Shown piece after piece: positions 6,230 through 19,958 of a stretch of DNA of 64,000 nt. Source of the DNA: Methanobacteriota archaeon (GTDB lineage: Archaea; Thermoplasmatota; Thermoplasmata; UBA10834); contig CP070732.1 of assembly GCA_020347565.1 (NCBI GenBank), positions 170,516 to 234,515 on the forward strand, read 5' to 3'. A program made the position numbers and the translations under genes. Each line of letters starts with the position of its first letter. Position 1 is the stretch's first letter. The notes under the pieces were generated by a model, which saw only the letters and a program-made list of their open reading frames with translations, was not told where the DNA came from and searched no databases.

Positions 6230-9200
6230 TCATCCTGGCTGCGGAGGTTCCTCCTCCGGAGGCGCGGGAATCTCAGCTTCTGAGCCTGCCTCCTCGGCCA
6301 TCTCCGACGGCGTCATACCTTCCATATCGCCAGCGATGCTCGGCTCCCTGCCTCTCCCTTTGCGCTTCATGAGCACAAAGGCTGTGACCAATAGCACCAG
6401 GACAATCAGCGGTATGATCAAGAGCAGCAGCACATCGATCCCGCCACCCTCGTCCTCCTCCTCGACAGTGATAAGGATTGTCTGGGAGATCGGAGTCATG
6501 TCCGAGTGATCTTGGTCGTCCATGACAGACGCCGTCACTGAGTATGCGCTCTCGCGCCCTTCCTCGTACGCGTACGAGAACTCGACGGTCCTGTTCACCA
6601 ACGGGTCGGAGTCGAACTCGAATGTCTCAGGCGTCGAGCCGTCGCCGAAGTCCAGCATGATGGTGAGGTAGTCGCCCTCCTTGTCGCTCACGGTGACATT
6701 GAAGTAGATGACCTCACCCGGGACATAGGAGTCACCGGCAGGGTCACTCCTTGTGACCTCCACCAGCTGCGGTCTCATGTTGGCCTCGTAGACGGTCACG
6801 GCTGCAACGGCGGATTCGTTGTTGCGCTTGCCGTCATCCGCCCAAGCCGTCAGCTCGAAATTACCCGTCGCGTTATACGCGTGCGAGGAGGCATACCCGT
6901 CCTCTGGGTCGCCCATGGTCATGGAGCTGTCGTCACCCCAGTCGTACCAAACGGTCAACGGGTCCCCGTCCGGGTCGCTTGCGCTCACTGGCCTGACGGT
7001 CTTGGACTCGTTGTAGTAGAACGAGTAGGCGCTCGCAAGCAGGATCTCTGGCGGCTTGTTCACGGCCACTGTCAAGTTCTTCGACGCTGACACGTTGTGC
7101 GAGCCATCGTCGATGTACACCGTCACCGTGTAGACGCCTTCCTCATCGTAGATGTGCGAGAACTCAGCGTACTGCATGTCTGAGGTGGCACCGGCGGTGT
7201 TGTTCACCCCTAAGTCGCTGTCGTCACCGAAGTCGATGGTGACGGTCAACGCGTCCTCGTTCGGGTCCGACGCGCCCACAGTCAACATCACTGGCAAATC
7301 TACCGTGGCCGGGTTCGGGCTCTGTTTGATCGATATGGATCCGGGTGGGGCCTCCTCTCCGGCCGCGAGTATGATCGCGTAGACCGTGGTGGACACGTTA
7401 TGTCCTTCTCCGTCGTCGACATATATGACGACTGGATATGTTCCCGCAGCGGTCCATTCGTGTTCGACCGTTGACGTAGCCTCTTCTCCTATCTTGGACG
7501 ACATGTCATGGTTGGTCACGTTGAACGAGCCGTCTCCCCAGTCCCACGTGAACCTCAAGCTGTCCGGGTCCGGGTCGCTCGCAACGGCTTCGCAGGCGAT
7601 TGGCTGCCCTTCCAAACCCGATATGTTGGTGGCCATCGGGGCTGTCGGAGGCATGTTCTCGTACACGCTATACGTCTTATGGACTGAAACGTTATGTGTT
7701 GGGTCGTTCTGGTCGCTAGCTCCGTCCCATACCCACACTGAGACGTCGTATTCACCGATCGCGTCCCACGTATGAGTCTGCTCATCCTGCTCCATCGTGT
7801 CGTTTGCCACTGGCTGATGAAGCTGAGTCGTGTAGGTACCATCTCCCCAGTCCCATGTAAACAAGAGCCCCTCGCCGTCCGGACCCTGCTCATGATCCGA
7901 TGCCCATATGGACCAGGTGGTCTCGTCGTCCACGTAGGCGCGGAGCGGCGACACCGTGAGTCCTTCGAGGGTTGGCCCGAGGTTCGGTTCTGGGAGAACG
8001 TTGACCACGGCAGTCTGGATATTCTCGTATTCGTGGTACGGATCCGACAAGCCAACCGTGAGGTTGTACGTGCCGACAGTCTCATACGTGTATGTCCACT
8101 CCACCCACGAGGGCTGCGTCGTGTCGCCGGACACAGTCATACTCTCGAACTCGTCGATTCCTCCATCCCCGGCCGTCCAGTTCACGGTTATCTCGTCGCC
8201 TTCCAGATCCGAGACCTCTATCTCGAATGTGATCGGGACGTCCACCTCCCGGTCATAGCCAGAAGACAGAGAGGTATCGAAGACCGGGAAAGAGTTGGCT
8301 TCCACAGGCTCGAGATCGTACCATATCCAGAGCATGTCGGAGATTATCGTTCTCGCGACGTGCTCCTCCCAGTTGCCCCAACCATCGTATCTCATTGTGG
8401 TGAAGGCATAGAGGCCCGCGGGATGCAGTGGCGGGAACTCCGTGTAGGTCTCGTATATCGCTTCCTGAAGCTCGTCCACGAGAACCTTCCTCGCGTTGAT
8501 GTCATTCGTCCTCAACGCCTCATCGAATGTGTCGTCGAAGCCGCATCGAGCGACGGCGTTATCGTAGTCCTCCCACCACCATCCGTCCGGTTCGTTGAGG
8601 CCGCCCTGGCAGATGGGTCCCACACAGTTGTAACCTCCTTCTCTCACCTGATTCGTCAACCAGCAGGCGAGGTTGGATAACGGCTCGGGGCCCCAGTACC
8701 ATGACCACACCCACAGATCGTACTCGCACTGGTACCATATGTCGTTCGTGAACGGGCCTGCGGGATATGAATTGAAGTCGAACTTGATGCCTGCCTGTGC
8801 CGCCCAGGAGACCCAGGCCTGGCCTATCGTAGTGTAGGCAGGGTCGCTGTCTGGGACGTCTAGACGGAATTCCAGCTCAGCGCCGAGCGCCGCTCCGTAA
8901 TCGGTGTACGCGAGGGAGTCTTCCGTAACCTCGAGATAATCGTCCCCATCCGTGTCTTCGTATCCCGCGGCTATCAGCATATCCATGGCCGCCGCAGGGT
9001 CGAAGGGTAGGGGATTCGAGAGATTCGCATGCCAGAAGCCAGGGTTGAGCACGGTGTCCGCCTGGTCCGCCATGTTGTGGAAGTAGAGCGTCTCCAGCAG
9101 GTCCTTGTTTAGAGTCATCCCGATCGCCTTCCGGACGGTCCTGTCGAGGAGGATGTGGTTTCCGCTCTCGGCGTACCCTATCTTTTGCCTGAGCTCGAGC

Positions 9201-10150
9201 GGGATTGCGTTTATGGCGATGTCGTATATGCCCAGCTCCTGCGTGACCTGTTTCGTTATTGGGACAGACTCGCTACTGACGATGGCTTCCCATGCTGGCA
9301 TCTGTGCTCCGGAGACGTCGACGACATCCAACGCTCCGCTATTGATGCCGAACACGAGTCCATCCACGTTGGTGAATATCTGGAACTGAATTCCCTCGTA
9401 GTCGATGTCCCTCGCCTCGCCGTAGTCCGCCGTGCCGTGGAAGTTCGGCGCCTTCTTGAACCTGTGCCAGTCGTTCTTGGCCCCATCCTCGTAGTAGAAC
9501 GCGCCGCTTCCGATGAGGTCCTCCGGGTTCATGTGGCCAATGACGGCCCCGCCGGTGAAAGTCTCCCACTGGAATTTCGGGAGGATAGGGACCCACACGA
9601 GGTCGTCGATGAGAGTCGCTTTCGGGTACTCCGTGTCTATCTGTACCTGGTACTCGTTGATGACGTATGTCCCTGTTATATTGTAGACATAGTATTCCCA
9701 ACCGTGGCCTGAGACGGTCCGCATGAGGTCGATGGTGAACTTAACATCTTCTGCCGTAAGCTTGTGGGACGTATCTTCGTCGTCCACTGCGTTTCTGAAG
9801 TAGGCGTTCTCAGTGATGTTTATGTAAGTACTCATGTTCCCAGACGGCCATTCGACCTGGTAGTAGCCGGTCGCGAGATGGTTGTGGATCTCGTCCCAGT
9901 CCTCGTCATACTGGAACAGCGTACTGAATATCAGGTTGTACGCAACCCAGTCGGACACGAACTCGACAGTCATCGGATTCCAGTTCATGAACTCCCCGAT
10001 CCACCCCACCTTTACGTAGCCGCCGGTCTGGGCGGACGCGTTCTCCACAATCGGGTCATTTGATATCATCAATGGTATTGCGCCGACGACGAATGCGACG
10101 GTCAGCAGTACCGCAACCAATCTCGTAGCTCCTGTGGAAACAAGTGTCAT
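6230..10150 (-). CDS. giant membrane-anchored peptide-binding protein with PKD repeats
   Basis: The product (1306 residues) starts at ATG 10150, which has GGAGG 8 bases upstream; the longer frame at 10195 lacks this. Residues 1-40 are a signal peptide. About 45-600 is a family 5 (Dpp/Opp-type) solute-binding domain: typical N-terminal YVKVGWIGEFMNWNP, HKLTAEDVKFTIDLM, a central SGAFYYEDG. About 640-1225 holds six PKD-like β domains with WDWGDG, DFGDDS, DWGDDS and DFGDGS cores. A transmembrane helix is at about 1238-1261, followed by KRKGRGR and an acidic/proline-rich tail. Many N-x-S/T sites suggest surface glycosylation. It probably captures peptides at the cell surface for the two permeases downstream. 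The PKD stalk fused to the receptor is unusual. Confidence 0.88.
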   Translation of the reverse strand: MTLVSTGATRLVAVLLTVAFVVGAIPLMISNDPIVENASAQTGGYVKVGWIGEFMNWNPMTVEFVSDWVAYNLIFSTLFQYDEDWDEIHNHLATGYYQVEWPSGNMSTYINITENAYFRNAVDDEDTSHKLTAEDVKFTIDLMRTVSGHGWEYYVYNITGTYVINEYQVQIDTEYPKATLIDDLVWVPILPKFQWETFTGGAVIGHMNPEDLIGSGAFYYEDGAKNDWHRFKKAPNFHGTADYGEARDIDYEGIQFQIFTNVDGLVFGINSGALDVVDVSGAQMPAWEAIVSSESVPITKQVTQELGIYDIAINAIPLELRQKIGYAESGNHILLDRTVRKAIGMTLNKDLLETLYFHNMADQADTVLNPGFWHANLSNPLPFDPAAAMDMLIAAGYEDTDGDDYLEVTEDSLAYTDYGAALGAELEFRLDVPDSDPAYTTIGQAWVSWAAQAGIKFDFNSYPAGPFTNDIWYQCEYDLWVWSWYWGPEPLSNLACWLTNQVREGGYNCVGPICQGGLNEPDGWWWEDYDNAVARCGFDDTFDEALRTNDINARKVLVDELQEAIYETYTEFPPLHPAGLYAFTTMRYDGWGNWEEHVARTIISDMLWIWYDLEPVEANSFPVFDTSLSSGYDREVDVPITFEIEVSDLEGDEITVNWTAGDGGIDEFESMTVSGDTTQPSWVEWTYTYETVGTYNLTVGLSDPYHEYENIQTAVVNVLPEPNLGPTLEGLTVSPLRAYVDDETTWSIWASDHEQGPDGEGLLFTWDWGDGTYTTQLHQPVANDTMEQDEQTHTWDAIGEYDVSVWVWDGASDQNDPTHNVSVHKTYSVYENMPPTAPMATNISGLEGQPIACEAVASDPDPDSLRFTWDWGDGSFNVTNHDMSSKIGEEATSTVEHEWTAAGTYPVVIYVDDGEGHNVSTTVYAIILAAGEEAPPGSISIKQSPNPATVDLPVMLTVGASDPNEDALTVTIDFGDDSDLGVNNTAGATSDMQYAEFSHIYDEEGVYTVTVYIDDGSHNVSASKNLTVAVNKPPEILLASAYSFYYNESKTVRPVSASDPDGDPLTVWYDWGDDSSMTMGDPEDGYASSHAYNATGNFELTAWADDGKRNNESAVAAVTVYEANMRPQLVEVTRSDPAGDSYVPGEVIYFNVTVSDKEGDYLTIMLDFGDGSTPETFEFDSDPLVNRTVEFSYAYEEGRESAYSVTASVMDDQDHSDMTPISQTILITVEEEDEGGGIDVLLLLIIPLIVLVLLVTAFVLMKRKGRGREPSIAGDMEGMTPSEMAEEAGSEAEIPAPPEEEPPQPG

Positions 10151-10248: not shown

Positions 10249-10383
10249 CCGTAGGTCGAACGGGTAACATCAGGCAGTCCAGCTTCACGCTGTATGATGA
10301 CTTTGATCTCGCTCCAGATGTCCAGCAGAATCGGCCGCTCCGTCTCGCGGCTCATCTGACTCTTTTCGGAATATAGTTCCGCC

Positions 10384-10405
10384 GTGATTGATACGTGATT
10401 GATAC
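10384..10405. repeat. tandem 11-bp direct repeat between oligopeptidase and transporter
   Basis: GTGATTGATAC occurs twice head to tail, then continues with GTATATCG. It lies just after the oligopeptidase stop and about 140 bp upstream of the transporter TATA box. It could be a regulator site or part of a 3' end. Two copies are too few to decide. Confidence 0.45.
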
Positions 10406-10424
10406 GTATATCGTAGCCCCGGGT

Positions 10425-12491
10425 TCATGAATGCGCCCCACATCTCACATCTTCAGCAATGAAGGCCAGCTTGAGTGCCTCCTCCTTCATGGAGTCGTAC
10501 CTCGCGTGGGAACCATGATGCCCCTCCGACATCTTTGTCCTGAGCATGATCGTGTTTTCCTCTGCGCCGATGTCCCTTATCCGTGCCACCCATTTGATGG
10601 GCTCCCAGAACGGTACCCTTGGATCGTTCATCCCTGAAGTGACGAACAACTTCGGGTATCTGACCGGTCGGACGTTCTCATAGGGCGAGTACGACTTGCA
10701 GTACTCGTACACTTCTGGTTCGTGCAAATCGCCGTACTCCTCATACTCCCCGATGACGAGCGGTATGGATTCGTCGAGCATGGTGTGTATGACATCGACG
10801 AAGGGCACCTCTGCGAGTACGACTCGGAACAGGTCCGGCCTCATCGTGGTAGCGGCCGCGACCAACAGCCCTCCCGCACTGCCTCCTCTCGCAGCCAGCA
10901 GCTCCTTGGATGTGTATCCCTCCCTTATCAGATACTCCGCGCTGTCGATGAAGTCCGAGAAGCAGTTCTTCTTGTTGAGCATCCGACCGCTGTCGTACCA
11001 ATGCTGTCCGTATTCCCCGCCTCCGCGGATGCCCGCCACTGCGTAGACGAAGCCCCTCTCCAGCAGGCTCAGGATCATCGGGTCGAGCGATGGCGATGAT
11101 GTCTCGAAGTCTCCGGCCGCCCCATAGGCGTACAAGAGCAGAGGGTTCCTGCTATCCTTCTTCAGCCCCTTCCGATGCATGATGTTCATGGGGATTATCG
11201 TGCCGTCCGAGACAGGGACATGAACCCTCTCCGCGTGGTAGTCGGAGGGGTCGTAGCCGCGGACCTCCTCCTCCTTGACGAGCTTGAGCTCGCGACCGGC
11301 CATATCGTATTCGTAGGTCCTTCTCGGCGTCATCATGGACGTGTACGCGAAGCGGAAGCTGGTCGAATCCAGGTCAGGGTTCTCAAGCGGCCATACCCCC
11401 CGAAGTGTTTCGGGCAGCTCGACGATGTGCGACTTTCCCGTGGCGAGGTCGATGACTCTGATGGAGCTGATGGCGTTCTCCCGCTCGAAGACCACAAGAT
11501 GGTCCGAGAACACATCGACCCACGGGAACGGGTCGCTGACGTTCACGATTCTCGAATCGCTATGCGGAAGTATCTCCTGCCAGTTCTCCTGTGATGGCGC
11601 CGCAACAGGCGCCCGTACTATCTTGAAGTTCGGCGCTCCGTCATTGGTGACAATTGTGAAGTCTCCGCCTCCGTGCAGGACATAGTATCTCACGCCTTTC
11701 CTCCTCGGCAGGACGGGACGGAACACCCCCGCGTCGTCGCCGGCCCTCAGGAAGTTCACCTCTCCAGTGGTGAGCGTCTGCACCGTGACAAACAGGTACT
11801 CCCTTGACTTGCTCTTTGAGAGGGACATATACTCGCATCCTAGGTCTGGTTCTTCGTAAACGACCGAGTCCTCCCCCGTCTTCGTGCCAACGAAGTGACG
11901 CATTACCCTGCTTGGCCTCTGCATGTGGTCGTATACTATGTAGTATATCGTCCTTCCGTCCAGGCCCCACTCGAATCCTCCTGTTCCGGTCACTTGATCG
12001 TCGATGATTTCATGCGAGCCCAGATCGACGACCTTCACATCGAAGTGCTCGGAACCGTCCATATCTACAGAGAACGCGACCTTCGCGTGGTCCGGGCTGG
12101 GCTTGACTGAGTCGATGTGGAAGAAGTCGCGCCCCTCCGAGAGGGCGTTCTGGTCGATGATGACCTCTTCTGGCGCGCCTCCCGAGAGCCGCCTGCGGCA
12201 GTACAGCGGATACTGCTTCCCCTTCTCCGTCCTGTGATAGTACTCGAAGTCGTCTATTCTGACGGGAGTGTCGGTGTCGTCTTCGGGCGTTCTGGCAACG
12301 AGCTCGGCGTAGATTTCTCCCTGAAGGTACTCCAGCCCCTTGGCCATCTCGTCGGCGTAGTCGTTCTCGGCCCGGATGTATCTGATTGTCTCCGGGTCCT
12401 CGCGGTCCCTGAGCCAGTGGTACTCATCGACGAGCATGTCTCCGTGGGTGATGACTTCCCTCGGTTTCTTCTGTGCGCGCGGAGGTTTCAT
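10425..12491 (-). CDS. ptrB: oligopeptidase B-like serine peptidase (S9A)
   Basis: The product (688 residues) has the usual length for oligopeptidase B: an N-terminal region and seven-bladed β-propeller up to about residue 410, then an α/β-hydrolase domain. The triad is visible: S538 in GGSAGG, D623 in SGMNDPRVP, and H658 in SEGHHGSH. The family cleaves short peptides, oligopeptidase B after basic residues. No signal peptide is present, so it is cytosolic. It would process peptides imported by the transporter encoded immediately downstream on the same strand. The ATG has GAGG about 10 bases upstream. Confidence 0.88.
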   Translation of the reverse strand: MKPPRAQKKPREVITHGDMLVDEYHWLRDREDPETIRYIRAENDYADEMAKGLEYLQGEIYAELVARTPEDDTDTPVRIDDFEYYHRTEKGKQYPLYCRRRLSGGAPEEVIIDQNALSEGRDFFHIDSVKPSPDHAKVAFSVDMDGSEHFDVKVVDLGSHEIIDDQVTGTGGFEWGLDGRTIYYIVYDHMQRPSRVMRHFVGTKTGEDSVVYEEPDLGCEYMSLSKSKSREYLFVTVQTLTTGEVNFLRAGDDAGVFRPVLPRRKGVRYYVLHGGGDFTIVTNDGAPNFKIVRAPVAAPSQENWQEILPHSDSRIVNVSDPFPWVDVFSDHLVVFERENAISSIRVIDLATGKSHIVELPETLRGVWPLENPDLDSTSFRFAYTSMMTPRRTYEYDMAGRELKLVKEEEVRGYDPSDYHAERVHVPVSDGTIIPMNIMHRKGLKKDSRNPLLLYAYGAAGDFETSSPSLDPMILSLLERGFVYAVAGIRGGGEYGQHWYDSGRMLNKKNCFSDFIDSAEYLIREGYTSKELLAARGGSAGGLLVAAATTMRPDLFRVVLAEVPFVDVIHTMLDESIPLVIGEYEEYGDLHEPEVYEYCKSYSPYENVRPVRYPKLFVTSGMNDPRVPFWEPIKWVARIRDIGAEENTIMLRTKMSEGHHGSHARYDSMKEEALKLAFIAEDVRCGAHS

Positions 12492-12653
12492 GGTGTTCGT
12501 CCTCTCTCACATATGACCGACGATATCGCGGTAGGAAATAAAGCAATCGCCCCTGGACCCTGCATATCCGCACGTTGATGCAGCGTTGTTTGGATAGTCC
12601 TGTCGAGAAGTCTCTTGTCCGCCCCTATGGCCTTTTCTATAGAAGAAGAAACG

Positions 12654-12726
12654 TGCGGCCGCCGGGATTTGAACCCGAGTTCTGAGCTTGGCAAGCTCAA
12701 GTGATAACCAGCTACACTACAGCCGC
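12654..12726 (-). tRNA. tRNA-Gly(GCC)
   Basis: The minus strand folds into a complete cloverleaf of 73 nt. The acceptor stem is GCGGCTG paired with CGGCCGC, the D stem is GTG/CAC, and the anticodon stem is TGAGC/GCTCA around loop TTGCCAA (anticodon GCC at 12692-12690). The variable loop has four bases. The T arm is TCGGG-TTCAAAT-CCCGG and the discriminator is A. CCA is not encoded and there is no intron. A pyrimidine-rich run (TTTCTTCTTCTATAG) follows and may terminate the transcript. Confidence 0.95.
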
Positions 12727-15092: not shown

Positions 15093-15629
15093 ATGAATGA
15101 AGATGACCTGATGAAAGTCAAAGTATGTTTCATTGGCGATGCCGGAGTCGGCAAGACCAGCCTGATCAAGAGGTTCGTATTGGATGTTTTCGACGACAGG
15201 TACATCGCCACCATTGGGACGAAGGTCACTAAGAAGATAGTCGAGGTGGACAGTGGCGGCGAGTCTGTCAAGGTGATGATGCTGATATGGGACATCATGG
15301 GGCAGAAGGGCTTCCGCGAGCTCCTGCGTGAGGCGTACTTTTTCGGAGCCCATGGTGCGATTGCCGTCTGCGACCTTACCAACAAGGAGACGCTAGAGGA
15401 GCTCAGGTCTTGGATAAAGGCGTTGACCGACGTCGCCGGCGACGTGCCGCTCGTGTTCGCCGGAAACAAGGCGGACCTAGAGAACGAGAGTGTCGTCAAG
15501 GAGGCGGAGCTCCAGGAGCTTGCGGAGAAGTACGAGGCCGAGGCCTTCATGACGAGCGCCAAGACCGGCCAGAACGTCGAGAACATGTTCAGAGCGCTTG
15601 GCTCCGCCATGCATGCCAAGATGGGCTGA
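15093..15629 (+). CDS. Ras/Rab-like small GTPase
   Basis: The product (178 residues) contains the five G motifs in order: G1 GDAGVGKTS, a switch I threonine in YIATIGTK, G3 WDIMGQ (WDTAGQ in Rab proteins), G4 NKAD and G5 TSAKTG. It resembles eukaryotic Ras/Rab proteins more than bacterial Era or Obg. It has no lipidation cysteine at the C-terminus. The ATG at 15093 has GGAGG 8 bases upstream; an ATG at 15078 overlaps that site and is rejected. It lies 108 bp upstream of, and on the same strand as, a transmembrane protein with a roadblock-like cytoplasmic domain, a fold that regulates such GTPases. A box GGCTTAAGAAC at about 15018 may be its promoter. Confidence 0.9.
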   Translation: MNEDDLMKVKVCFIGDAGVGKTSLIKRFVLDVFDDRYIATIGTKVTKKIVEVDSGGESVKVMMLIWDIMGQKGFRELLREAYFFGAHGAIAVCDLTNKETLEELRSWIKALTDVAGDVPLVFAGNKADLENESVVKEAELQELAEKYEAEAFMTSAKTGQNVENMFRALGSAMHAKMG

Positions 15630-15678
15630 GCACTTATAGCCAGCACCCGTTCGCAATATTGATAACGAGCTGAATATG

Positions 15679-15686
15679 CTTATAAC
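15679..15686 (+). promoter_or_regulatory. TATA box of the surface receptor gene
   Basis: CTTATAAC lies 59 bases before the ATG at 15738. Transcription would begin near 15708, with AAGGAG 10 bases upstream of the start codon. The receptor may therefore be transcribed separately from the GTPase as well as by read-through. Confidence 0.5.
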
Positions 15687-15737
15687 CCCAGCGCGGGCTA
15701 TTAACACCGCTGATGCGACAGCAAAGGAGCTGAGCAC

Positions 15738-18700
15738 ATGACAGAGGGGCGGAAGGCGGTGTCAAGGAAGTCCGCTCGCAAAGGCGCGAGACTACCAGCC
15801 TCGGTCATGGTGTTTCTGCTGGTCTCGTCAATGATGATCGTAGTGGAGATGCCGGCCGCCGAAGTCTCAGCCGAATCGGTTCCGTCCCACGAACGCCTGT
15901 TCCGCATGCACGTCGGAGAGATCGGCGGAGCGTCGGACTACGACTGGCTCAACTCCTCCGAGCCGAACGAGAATCCGACGTTGGATTACGACGGCGACAC
16001 GTTCCTGGGAATCACGATCAGAAAGAGTCTCCCATCAAACAGGTGGCAGCACTTCTGGGTTCTCTACCCAGAGCTGACATCGGATGTGCAGATCCTCGGT
16101 AACATATCCACGCACGTGTGGGCGGCGTCCAGAGACAACGAATCGACTTCCATGATCACAGTGGAGTTCTCCGATATGAACCCAGCCGACTGGGACGATC
16201 CAGATGCATGGGTGTTGATAGGAAGCACGACAGTGCCTTTAGCTGGCCCTGTGTATTCGTCGTTCAAGCCCTACGATATCGTGGTCACCGGCGTCGACTA
16301 CGTCCTGCCCGCGGGCCATCAGTTCGTACTGACGATCATGCAGGAGGGAGCACCGGCCACCAACGACGGCCTTCTTGTTCTTTACGATGACGACTATTTC
16401 GACTCCTATGTGCTCTTCGACACTCCCGACTTCGTATCGGTCGATGAGCTGACCTTCACAGACACCCTCGGAACCGTGCGGACGACGTTCTCCGATTCCG
16501 AGGATATCGTAATCACTGCGAACGTCTCGAATCCGTACGGCGTCTACGAGATCATGGGCTCCGAGGTCCAGATCGCCTACTCTGGGAACAGCACCGTGGT
16601 ACTCGCTTTCGCCCAGATGCAGCTCATCGAAGAGGACGCCTCTCCGAACCCCTCCTGGAGGGTATACGAGTACATCGTCAGCGGGCTGCCGGAGGCGGAA
16701 CTAACCGTGACCGTTCGGGCGTCGGACCCTCAGGGTTCGCCGTCCTGGCTGTCTGGGCAGATCGAAATAGTGACGGTTGACCACTTCGGGCTTGTGGTCC
16801 CGACGGTCGTGACGGTCCACGAGGAGTTCGGCATCACTGTCCGTGCTCTGAATGAGAGCGGAGGTGTCCAGACAGACTGGGTAGGCCCCGTTCAGCTCGA
16901 GGCGTATCTCACGGATAATTCGACGCCCGCAACCGGCGCGCTCGGTGTCGCCTCCTTGATGATCGACGTCGTCGACTCGGGCGAGAAGATGATATTCAAC
17001 CAGACCCTAGACTACTCCGAGGAGACTATCGTCATCAGAGCTTCATGCGGGCCTAATGTCGGTTGGAGCCTTCCGATCGAGGTCAGGAGCGGACCCGCAG
17101 TCACGGTGAACATCACTTCGGAGGACCCTCCGGAGGTTGCAGCTGGATGGTCGGTGGCGATGTCGGTCGTGGGCTTGGACGCGAACGGCTTCGTCAACTC
17201 GACGTGGGTCCCGAACTGGACCGTCACAGGGGACATCGGCACGCTGATCGCAGATGGCTTCACGGCGACGCTCGATGCAGTGTTTGTCGGTACGGGAACC
17301 GTGACATGCAGGAACGACGCGACGGGCGCTTGGGATAGCCTCGTGGTCACCGTGGACCCTGGCCTGCTGACCACGATAATCACGAACCCAGATGACAGCT
17401 TCATGATTCGGGAGGGGCAGACGACCTCCCTGTCCGCGACGGGCTACGACCTCTACGGGAACGAGGTGGACATAAGCAGTGCGATCTGGAGTACGAACAC
17501 ATCCGGAATGATATCCGGCGTCGGAGACACAGCGAGCTACACAGCAGGATTCATACCGGAAGTCGGGGTAGTGCAGGTATCCGTTGGCAGCGTGTTCGCC
17601 ACGCTCTGGGTCTGCGTCGACCCGCCGCTGCAGGGCCCTTGGCTCACCCCCATCCCTATGCAGACCAAGACCGAAGACAGCAACTGGACCTTCTCGCTCT
17701 CAACCTATTGGCATCACAATGAGGGCACTTCCGGGCTGAGATGGTTCGTCGAGGACGTCAACACTTCCCTGTACCTCGTCGTCCACGACCCCACCTCCGA
17801 GGCCATCATGAGGTTCCTGACGCAGCCGGACAAGTCCGGCACGGACCAGTTCAAGCTCTGGGTCCGAGACGAGAGCGGCTACTCAGACTACGAATACGTG
17901 ACTGTGTGGATAACGGCCGTGAACGACAGACCCATGTTCATCAACGAGCCTCCGACGGAGTTGTATGTGAAGTTCGAGACTCCATACTCGTTCGACTACT
18001 CGTATTACGTGAAGGATGTCGACACGCCGAAGACCGACCTCCGCATGGTATCTTCGCTACCCAGCAATGTGTACTTCGACTGGCTGATCGGGACGTTCTT
18101 GTTCCCCGAGCAGGACGGCCACGACAGCTACTTCGAGATAATGACGCTGACGGTGACGGATGCGCCCGAGGCGTCCAGCCCTAGCTCGGCTGACTCAGAC
18201 ACGCTCAACATCGTGGTGAGGGTGACCGACGACACCCCACCGTCCCTGAACCAGTCTCTTCCCGAGATAGTGATCGAGGAGGGGGACGAGAACGTCTTCG
18301 TATTCGACCTTGACGACTACTTCTTCGACCTTGACGACGACTATCTTGTCTACACTCGCGATTTCGACAACATCCTCATATCAATCGATGAGGAGACGCA
18401 CGAGGTCTACGTATCGGCGACCACGGAGTGGTCGGGGGTTACGGAAGGCACTTTCACGGCGATAGATCCGACCGGAGCGCTGAAGACCGACACGGTCCGT
18501 GTAACCGTGATAGCGGTCAACGACCCGCCCCAATTCAAGAGCCCAGGATCTGTCCACGTGAGATACAACCATACTTCGTACCTGGATGCGTCGATCTACA
18601 TATCGGACCCCGATCACGCTTTGGAGGAGTTGAGCGTCGGATTCAGCACACCATACGTGACCTATACCAATGGCCAGCTAGTCTTTCTGTTTCCGCCCAG

Positions 18701-19958
18701 CGAATCGGGCGGGCCGTTCACGGAACCTTATGTGGTCCAGGTGTACGGGAACGTCAGCGACCCGAACGGCGCCTGCGCTCCTTGCATGTTTGAAGTGCTT
18801 GTGAGCGACAACTACGCGCCTGAAGTGCGGACGCCCAATCCATACTGCGATTTCGTGTCGTTCCTTGAGGACGGCTACCTCAACAACTCCATGCACTTGG
18901 ACACGCTTTTCTTCGACTTCGACCATTCTGGCGAGGACCTGAGCTACACAGCGTCGGGCAACCTCAATGTCGTAGTGCAGATCTTCCCAGATTCCACGGT
19001 CAACTTCTCCGCCTTGGAGAACTGGTCCGGCAGCGAGATGATCGACTTCCGCGCCGTCGACCCGCTGGGAGCGTGGTGCTCGTGGCAGGTGACCGTGACC
19101 GTCATCGCCGTCAACGATGCCCCTGTCGCATATCCCATACCCGACTACTACATCCGCAGCGGAGAGGGCGGCACTCACATTGACATATCTGGGTACTTCA
19201 TCGACAGCGAGGCCGCGTTCTCCGGCCTCCTCATACATGCCTTCCCGGATCCGGAGGCGATAGTCGTTGGCAACTACCTCTATATCGACTTCCCTCAGGG
19301 CGCTCGGTCCATCAAGGTCACGCTGCGCGCGACCGACTCGGAAGGCGCAGAGTCCAACGCCGTGACTTTCACCGTGCATCTCGTGGAGAACTGGGCGGAC
19401 AAGATCGGCTGGCCGTGGACGTTCTTGATAACCATCATGGGCGCTGGGATAGGCGGATACCTCCTCGCGAGAAGGATTCCGAGACCGTTCGAGCTGGAGG
19501 ATCTGTTCCTCATCCACAACGACGGTCGCCTGATATCCCATGTGCTGAAGGGAGAGGAGCAGAACGGGATAGACAAGGACGTTGTGAGCGCCATGTTCAC
19601 TGCCGTCCAGGAGTTCGTCCGCGACTCGTTCCAGGCGGGCGAGGTAGGCCTGAAGAAGCTCGAAATCGGCGACGAGAACGTGATGATCGAGAAGGGGGAG
19701 TCCGTCTACCTGGCTCTCATCTACTCGGGATGGCCTCCGAAGGACGTGTTCCAGAGGCTCTCGATGCTGCTCAGCGATATCGAGGAACGGTACAGCAGCA
19801 GGGTCGAGCGCTGGAACGGCACGAAGAAGGCGCTGCCGGGCGTCGACGAGATGCTCCAGAACTACATGGCCCGAGCGTATGAGCCCGGCGCGTGGCAGCC
19901 CGAGGAAGAGGGCATAAAGGAAGAGGACTGGGTCGACATCATCAGCAAGGACAGCTAG
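15738..19958 (+). CDS. giant single-pass surface protein with cadherin/Ig-like domains and cytoplasmic roadblock-like domain
   Basis: The product (1406 residues) has a signal helix at about residues 20-45 (LPASVMVFLLVSSMMIVVEM). A long extracellular part follows: an N-terminal jelly-roll-like region and Ig-like folds to about 630, then repeated cadherin-like/VCBS-type modules with TVWITAVNDRP, TVIAVNDPPQF and TVIAVNDAP junctions to about 1215. The transmembrane helix is at about 1225-1245, ending in LLARR. The cytoplasmic part (about 1250-1355) has a β-β-α-β-β-α pattern (LEDLFLIHNDGRLISHV, a helix, LKKLEIGDENVMIE, ESVYLALIYSG, a helix) like roadblock/longin folds, then an acidic tail. The Ras-like GTPase gene is directly upstream. 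I infer a receptor that controls, or is read by, that GTPase. Confidence 0.8.
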   Translation: MTEGRKAVSRKSARKGARLPASVMVFLLVSSMMIVVEMPAAEVSAESVPSHERLFRMHVGEIGGASDYDWLNSSEPNENPTLDYDGDTFLGITIRKSLPSNRWQHFWVLYPELTSDVQILGNISTHVWAASRDNESTSMITVEFSDMNPADWDDPDAWVLIGSTTVPLAGPVYSSFKPYDIVVTGVDYVLPAGHQFVLTIMQEGAPATNDGLLVLYDDDYFDSYVLFDTPDFVSVDELTFTDTLGTVRTTFSDSEDIVITANVSNPYGVYEIMGSEVQIAYSGNSTVVLAFAQMQLIEEDASPNPSWRVYEYIVSGLPEAELTVTVRASDPQGSPSWLSGQIEIVTVDHFGLVVPTVVTVHEEFGITVRALNESGGVQTDWVGPVQLEAYLTDNSTPATGALGVASLMIDVVDSGEKMIFNQTLDYSEETIVIRASCGPNVGWSLPIEVRSGPAVTVNITSEDPPEVAAGWSVAMSVVGLDANGFVNSTWVPNWTVTGDIGTLIADGFTATLDAVFVGTGTVTCRNDATGAWDSLVVTVDPGLLTTIITNPDDSFMIREGQTTSLSATGYDLYGNEVDISSAIWSTNTSGMISGVGDTASYTAGFIPEVGVVQVSVGSVFATLWVCVDPPLQGPWLTPIPMQTKTEDSNWTFSLSTYWHHNEGTSGLRWFVEDVNTSLYLVVHDPTSEAIMRFLTQPDKSGTDQFKLWVRDESGYSDYEYVTVWITAVNDRPMFINEPPTELYVKFETPYSFDYSYYVKDVDTPKTDLRMVSSLPSNVYFDWLIGTFLFPEQDGHDSYFEIMTLTVTDAPEASSPSSADSDTLNIVVRVTDDTPPSLNQSLPEIVIEEGDENVFVFDLDDYFFDLDDDYLVYTRDFDNILISIDEETHEVYVSATTEWSGVTEGTFTAIDPTGALKTDTVRVTVIAVNDPPQFKSPGSVHVRYNHTSYLDASIYISDPDHALEELSVGFSTPYVTYTNGQLVFLFPPSESGGPFTEPYVVQVYGNVSDPNGACAPCMFEVLVSDNYAPEVRTPNPYCDFVSFLEDGYLNNSMHLDTLFFDFDHSGEDLSYTASGNLNVVVQIFPDSTVNFSALENWSGSEMIDFRAVDPLGAWCSWQVTVTVIAVNDAPVAYPIPDYYIRSGEGGTHIDISGYFIDSEAAFSGLLIHAFPDPEAIVVGNYLYIDFPQGARSIKVTLRATDSEGAESNAVTFTVHLVENWADKIGWPWTFLITIMGAGIGGYLLARRIPRPFELEDLFLIHNDGRLISHVLKGEEQNGIDKDVVSAMFTAVQEFVRDSFQAGEVGLKKLEIGDENVMIEKGESVYLALIYSGWPPKDVFQRLSMLLSDIEERYSSRVERWNGTKKALPGVDEMLQNYMARAYEPGAWQPEEEGIKEEDWVDIISKDS

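Follow-up and report, generated by a model that had tools for sequence, protein, structure and literature searches.

The locus described here raises the question of whether a protein at the cell surface of an archaeon could control a small GTPase directly, through its own cytoplasmic tail. Small GTPases and longin domains form the core of eukaryotic membrane traffic, and the case for their use in prokaryotes has rested mostly on Asgard genomes and on the MglA/MglB system. The window, i.e., the whole stretch of 64,000 nucleotides that was analyzed, comes from a Thermoplasmata genome that is a single contig of 1.97 Mb, and whose nearest named relatives, among the matches listed, are assemblies designated Thermoplasmata archaeon. 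An initial annotation, made from the sequence alone, had read two adjacent genes of the window as a Ras-like GTPase and a surface receptor with a roadblock-like cytoplasmic domain.

The first gene (15093-15629, forward strand) codes for a Ras/Rab-type small GTPase of 178 residues. The protein matches the Ras profile of Pfam with an E value of 1.2e-38 (132.6 bits, for a cut-off of 21.6) and its best sequence match in the PDB is Rab8A (2e-28). The five G motifs that had been claimed for it are all in place in an alignment with three paralogues from the same genome (G1, GDAGVGKT; switch I, T40; G3, WDIMGQ; G4, NKAD; G5, TSAK), with the catalytic Gln kept in G3, and together with the Ras profile they place the protein in the Ras superfamily. 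No cysteine for prenylation or lipidation is present at the C-terminus of the sequence, which ends in HAKMG; membrane placement of a GTPase devoid of its own lipid anchor would therefore come via the tail of the receptor. The genome codes for five such GTPases, three of which do not adjoin a longin gene (see below). Neighboring genes in the window code for Asn_synthase, Mur-ligase (folC-like) and DUF885 proteins and for an amino-acid permease; a tRNA-Gly (gcc) gene at 12653-12726, on the reverse strand, is the only tRNA gene found within the window.

The second gene (15738-19958) lies downstream on the same strand, after a gap of 108 bases, and codes for a protein of 1406 residues with orthologues that also lie beside a GTPase gene. 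A hydropathy scan delimits a signal peptide region (residues 1-46; 15738-15875), with an estimated cleavage point and a hydrophobic core at residues 23-41 (KD 2.13), and a membrane helix (residues 1226-1244; 19413-19469) followed by a basic RRIPRP motif on the predicted cytoplasmic side. The single membrane helix is thus borne out, although it is weak, with a KD peak of 1.39 that lies under the cut-off of 1.6 applied; a similar hydrophobic segment is found at the matching position in three relatives (L016, L017 and L041). These sequence features show a predicted type-I, single-pass topology. The extracellular region (residues 47-1225; 15876-19412) has about 1180 residues, close to the 1200 of the initial annotation, but its description as adhesive rests on repeat matches that stay below cut-off: tand_rpt_95 matches three stretches with 65.6 bits (curated cut-off, 90), and Big_9 (E 0.023) and Cadherin_4 are matched at sub-threshold level in Pfam. 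The C-terminal half corresponds to these tandem-95/cadherin-like repeats and the N-terminal half has no Pfam assignment, so that Ig/cadherin-like repeats are likely, but not certain, to be present.

The cytoplasmic domain (residues ~1252-1377; 19491-19868) was delimited by structure prediction, structural alignment (VIA-align and Foldseek) and conservation. An alignment of 92 rows (A3) was used as input for AlphaFold, and the resulting model (mean pLDDT 79, pTM 0.73) has the order b1 b2 a1 b3 b4 b5 a2 a3, a fold of the roadblock/longin class, as had been anticipated, rather than something else. In VIA-align, the top match of the model is Sec22b (125 residues at 2.6 A, Z 14.7), ahead of Ykt6 (Z 13.9), and Fuzzy of the Rab23 complex has a Z score of 12.3; an Asgard (Lokiarchaeal) longin (PDB 8yqg) gives a Z score of 11.1, and Ragulator and MglB are also among the Foldseek matches. 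According to the available text of PMC10933270, longins differ from roadblocks by the loss of the N-terminal helix and the gain of a second C-terminal helix. As the model shows no N-terminal helix and has two C-terminal helices, the tail is, by predicted fold, a longin and not the roadblock-like domain that had been proposed; membership of a sequence profile is not claimed. No curated family of Pfam or NCBIfam reaches the domain, alone or among the 92 members, and the matches of the domain profile to PDB sequences were all chance-like (designed bundles, E 0.004). The two Pfam families most often weakly matched among the 92 relatives are Fuz_longin_1 (7 members, best 0.0032) and Robl_LC7 (PF03259; 5 members at E values of 0.1 or less, the best 0.0038), the latter giving no match to the domain of the window. 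A genome search with PF03259 found two other loci and none of the longins, which, with the topology, led us to reject the roadblock identity. The most conserved element of the longin domain is the a1 helix, with the pattern D-x-D-x-x-S-x-M-x-T-A-V-Q-x-F-x-x-D-S-F.

Separate roadblock proteins occur alongside the longins in the same genomes, and some adjoin other GTPases (genomes G034 and G044), so that roadblock-coupled and longin-coupled GTPases seem to be run side by side. Such PF03259 genes beside Ras-type GTPases, in an MglA/MglB-like arrangement, were seen at G034:C1:1777498-1778391, G034:C1:1846985-1847846 and G044:C1:3660256-3661139.

The longin domain is present in four copies in the source genome. 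Besides that of the window, two are in surface proteins of 1686 (L010) and 1691 (L011) residues and one is in a short protein with two transmembrane segments (L012), directly followed by another GTPase gene, which makes a second longin-GTPase pair. The longin profile was found in 48 of 60 related genomes, in some of which the domain has expanded to dozens of copies (up to 26 matches per genome), and a scan with one peptide pattern gave 79 further loci among the best 80 matches listed. With four copies in one genome, 48 of 60 genomes and at least 79 further loci, the domain is not a chance pattern of an open reading frame. A helix predicted by hydropathy within 75 residues before the domain is found in 63 of the 77 archaeal longin genes of the related-loci set; of the 14 others, six have a segment that narrowly misses the threshold (1.39-1.57), and the remaining eight seem to be soluble or of a different build. 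In the material searched, which included the 60 related genomes, 120 Pseudomonadota genomes and the best 80 matches of the pattern scan, the longin family was found in Thermoplasmata, Pseudomonadota, Planctomycetota and on a Nostoc plasmid.

The domain also occurs within proteins of the AAA_16-TPR type and follows a HerA-type ATPase in another. In L055, L069 and L075, which are AAA_16-type ATPases that carry long arrays of TPRs (Pfam analysis covering L055), it is inserted between the P-loop and the Walker B region, with no membrane helix ahead of it, and at L056:9089-10393 it is C-terminal in a HerA/DUF87-like ATPase. Coiled-coil-like repeat proteins carry three (L036:4937-11479) or two (L033:6443-10561) longins about 505 residues apart, and a multi-TM protein (L068:9083-10828) has a tandem pair, possibly a built-in longin dimer. 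Two long GTPases (L012:5776-6588, which follows the two-TM longin protein, and L014:6236-7147) have a C-terminal extension of about 100 residues in which no Pfam family scores above cut-off. One protein, L090, was read by eye as signal-peptidase-like, a reading that we dropped as Pfam gives no match.

Is the proximity of longin and GTPase genes more than a matter of gene order? The GTPase gene is directly upstream of the receptor gene, itself of about the same length, in all of the 13 near relatives. We do not take this conservation as proof of a link; it is weak evidence, because the flanking genes are conserved too, as expected of plain synteny. Over the whole archaeal set, a GTPase gene lies within 500 bp of 31 of the 77 longin genes, in all four relative orientations (13/13 for the window type and 18/64 for the others), and none lies within that distance of the other 46, nor adjoins two of the four longins of the source genome. 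Of the 38 longins of five one-contig genomes, 11 were within 2 kb of a GTPase, for a mean of 1.93 after random circular shifts, none of 2000 of which reached 11; for this count the open frame served to approximate gene ends, two genome lengths were rounded and several longins share one gene. There is also a second family (f9, in genomes G027, G038 and G056) in which the sole GTPase adjoins the sole longin receptor, with 55-57% identity to the GTPase of the window and 23-26% to the receptor, and in which none of the other flanking genes of the window that were tested was found within regions of 17-18 kb.

Across 60 genomes of the Thermoplasmata class, 47 have both genes, 10 neither, one the longin only and two the GTPase only (Fisher, 9e-9, a value that is too small because the genomes are related), and the copy numbers are correlated (Spearman 0.86, and 0.92 in the 39 genomes outside the order). 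Tree distances of archaeal pairs outside the group of the window agree weakly (Mantel, r 0.35, 21/5000 permutations), as shared ancestry can produce. The short two-TM longin protein and a GTPase are adjacent in 16 genomes, which were picked for having both positions listed and do not give a rate. A counter-example is genome G054, with one GTPase and one longin that are not neighbors within a region of 12.7 kb, and no GTPase was seen at L163, L165, L166 and L169, four of ten regions examined, of which L165 ends at a contig break. In genome G048, a GTPase gene lies beside the first half of the receptor at a contig end, and the longin is on another contig. No natural fusion of the two proteins was found among the related loci examined. 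Nevertheless, the genomic link between longin and GTPase is real, and the initial expectation that the pair would be neighbors in relatives held, including in surroundings that differ from those of the window.

Arrays of GTPase genes were seen directly downstream of giant longin receptors, with six genes at G044:C1:3131555-3137282 and three at G034:C1:556797-559539; the open frames of these receptors have 5179 and 3158 residues, respectively.

A profile made from the four longin copies of the source genome also matches a domain of bacterial membrane proteins. Zetaproteobacteria and one planctomycete are among the matches listed of the peptide-pattern scan, and 17 of 120 Pseudomonadota genomes have matches, of which three are weak, with E values from 4e-7 to 5e-9. 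In these bacteria, a gene for a coiled-coil-like protein is followed by those for the longin-TM protein and the GTPase and then, in a Zetaproteobacterium (L059; longin at 9072-9590, GTPase at 10343-10837), by that for a cyclase, and a Mesorhizobium plasmid is annotated as coding in turn for a hypothetical protein, an OmpA family protein, a Rab family GTPase and an adenylate/guanylate cyclase; Pfam confirmed the OmpA and Guanylate_cyc domains of the bacterial operons. A GTPase is adjacent in 10/11 and 17/18 loci of two partly overlapping bacterial sets (by its measurements, L144 seems identical to L070); the two misses are L076, in which the GTPase frame is broken, and L155, in which there is no GTPase. 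A model predicted from a bacteria-only alignment (11 rows; pLDDT 77) independently shows the longin order in its core, with additional helices ahead of b1, and matches Sec22b (Z 14.2; 2.7 A, 124 residues), Fuzzy-Rab23 (13.6) and Mon1-Ccz1 (11.8), so that both the archaeal and the bacterial models match longin structures over most of the domain. The operons are those of the Group 1 Rup GTPases, for which the domain of the membrane protein is given as unknown, and its interactions as not characterized experimentally as of 2014, in the available text of Wuichet and Sogaard-Andersen (2014; PMC4316618). On the predicted models, this formerly unknown domain is a longin, the same domain as the tail of the receptor in the window. 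The initial annotation knew of no description of such a system; its bacterial cousins had been described in 2014, with the domain then unidentified.

We propose that the receptor and the GTPase form a transmembrane GTPase switch, in which the longin tail docks, and controls or recruits, the Rab/Rup-type GTPase; we give this reading a probability of roughly 0.6. Both longins and roadblocks form dimeric platforms to which small GTPases often bind, and they act mainly as GEFs and occasionally as GAPs (PMC10933270, in the available text). By analogy, the tail, probably as a dimer, would dock the GTPase at the membrane and would either set its nucleotide state, in a GEF- or GAP-like manner, or recruit it to the membrane; whatever the ectodomain binds or feels would then be passed on, coupling the state of the envelope to the switch. 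Binding, dimerization, regulation rather than passive anchoring, and the outside-in direction are all inferred. The direction is suggested by the bacterial operons, since their longin has a cell-wall-binding domain on one side and the GTPase and cyclase on the other, as fits a flow from envelope to cytoplasm. The longins with no adjoining GTPase, two of the four in the source genome, would need GTPases encoded elsewhere and, because soluble roadblock proteins are present in the same genomes, these could regulate some of the GTPases instead, which weighs against the switch.

Besides acting as GEFs, longins serve as effectors, as in the pairs of SRX with SRbeta and of AP sigma/mu with Arf1, and chains of both these types are among the fold matches of our models. 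The flow could accordingly run from the inside out, the longin reading the GTP state and the GTPase controlling the clustering, placement or turnover of the surface protein, and the three to six GTPases in tandem beside single giant receptors (G034 and G044) do resemble many switches that share a single target. We consider this direction unlikely, although worth keeping in mind: the bacterial operon ends in a cyclase beside the GTPase, or in another output module, which fits the flow from the envelope better, and the soluble ATPase/TPR proteins carry a longin where there is no surface target. A sorting or secretion device under Rab-like control, in which the tails would label surface proteins for delivery to a membrane domain or for the formation of vesicles, is a good deal less probable. 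The nearest folds are indeed SNARE longins and coat sigma/zeta subunits, which act in this way in eukaryotes, and within a single genome the tail is common to many different giant surface proteins (with as many as 26 longin matches), but neither the position of the longin directly after the membrane helix nor the OmpA-linked form of bacteria needs traffic. That the two genes are bystanders, kept together by conserved gene order with no joint action, would account for the conserved surroundings in the 13 close relatives and for the majority of archaeal longins that lack a neighboring GTPase; it is strained by the f9 pair, because its neighborhood differs from that of the window, and in view of the many arrangements, the near-universal bacterial operon and the co-occurrence over 60 genomes we find it very improbable.

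How does the proposed switch compare with known systems? Like the window, the Group 1 Rup operons combine a Ras-like GTPase of the Rup/Rab side with a neighboring membrane protein that has a homologous longin, a TM helix and an extracytoplasmic domain, and by domain homology and adjacency the receptor is, as in the group, a membrane protein with the conserved domain next to a GTPase that is putatively a Rup. In Group 1, however, the longin is N-terminal to the TM helix and the outer part is OmpA/peptidoglycan-binding, whereas the receptor has a giant N-terminal ectodomain and a C-terminal longin; the Group 1 GTPase is devoid of the Gln in G3 (e.g., WDIHGE) that the GTPase of the window retains; and the coiled-coil and output genes (cyclase, GGDEF or kinase) have no counterpart among the neighbors in the window. 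MglA/MglB, the polarity switch of Myxococcus, also couples a Ras-like GTPase genetically to a protein of the roadblock/longin class, but MglB is a soluble roadblock, whereas the domain of the window is a longin that forms part of a surface receptor. The actinobacterial conservons (CvnA-D) encode a membrane protein, a roadblock-class protein and a Ras-like GTPase in one operon, with a histidine kinase-like sensor and a separate roadblock, whereas in the window the sensor and the GTPase-binding-class domain are in one chain.

TRAPP, Mon1-Ccz1, Fuzzy-Inturned and SRX-SRbeta share with the window the longin fold, a Rab-type GTPase and a membrane setting, but in eukaryotes longins belong to multi-subunit complexes in the cytosol or on endomembranes, and we know of none in these four systems that forms the tail of a cell-surface receptor resembling an adhesin. 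Among archaea, Asgard longins have the same fold (PMC10933270; PDB 8yqg) but, in the available text, are not described as tails of surface receptors. Rab-like GTPases, likely of the same family as that of the window, were noticed in 2016 in members of the Thermoplasmata class, a Thermoplasmatales archaeon and Aciduliprofundum (PMC4915359); the main text, as available, gives no receptor partner and does not contain the terms "longin", "operon" or "genomic context". We found no report in the open-licence literature, which is not proof of absence, of longin-tailed surface receptors or of Thermoplasmata longins, nor one that identifies the Rup domain as a longin.

Small GTPases coupled to longins or roadblocks were thus already known; what appears to be new is the longin built into cell-surface receptors of Thermoplasmata, with up to 26 domain matches per genome and tied to Rab-type GTPases, so that sensor and longin are in one chain. 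The domain of the Rup operons now has an identity, as a predicted longin, and the role of these GTPases becomes directly testable in culturable bacteria such as Mesorhizobium or Nostoc. The pair of receptor and GTPase suggests an ancient route by which a small GTPase receives signals from the cell surface. More tentatively, at somewhat under even odds, longin TM proteins and Rab/Rup-type GTPases may form envelope-sensing switches across both prokaryotic domains, in Thermoplasmata and in several bacterial phyla, and the control of Rab GTPases by longins may have begun as signaling from surface to cytoplasm, before eukaryotic traffic. If so, eukaryotic membrane traffic would have reused a longin-Rab control that was first used for signaling at the cell surface.
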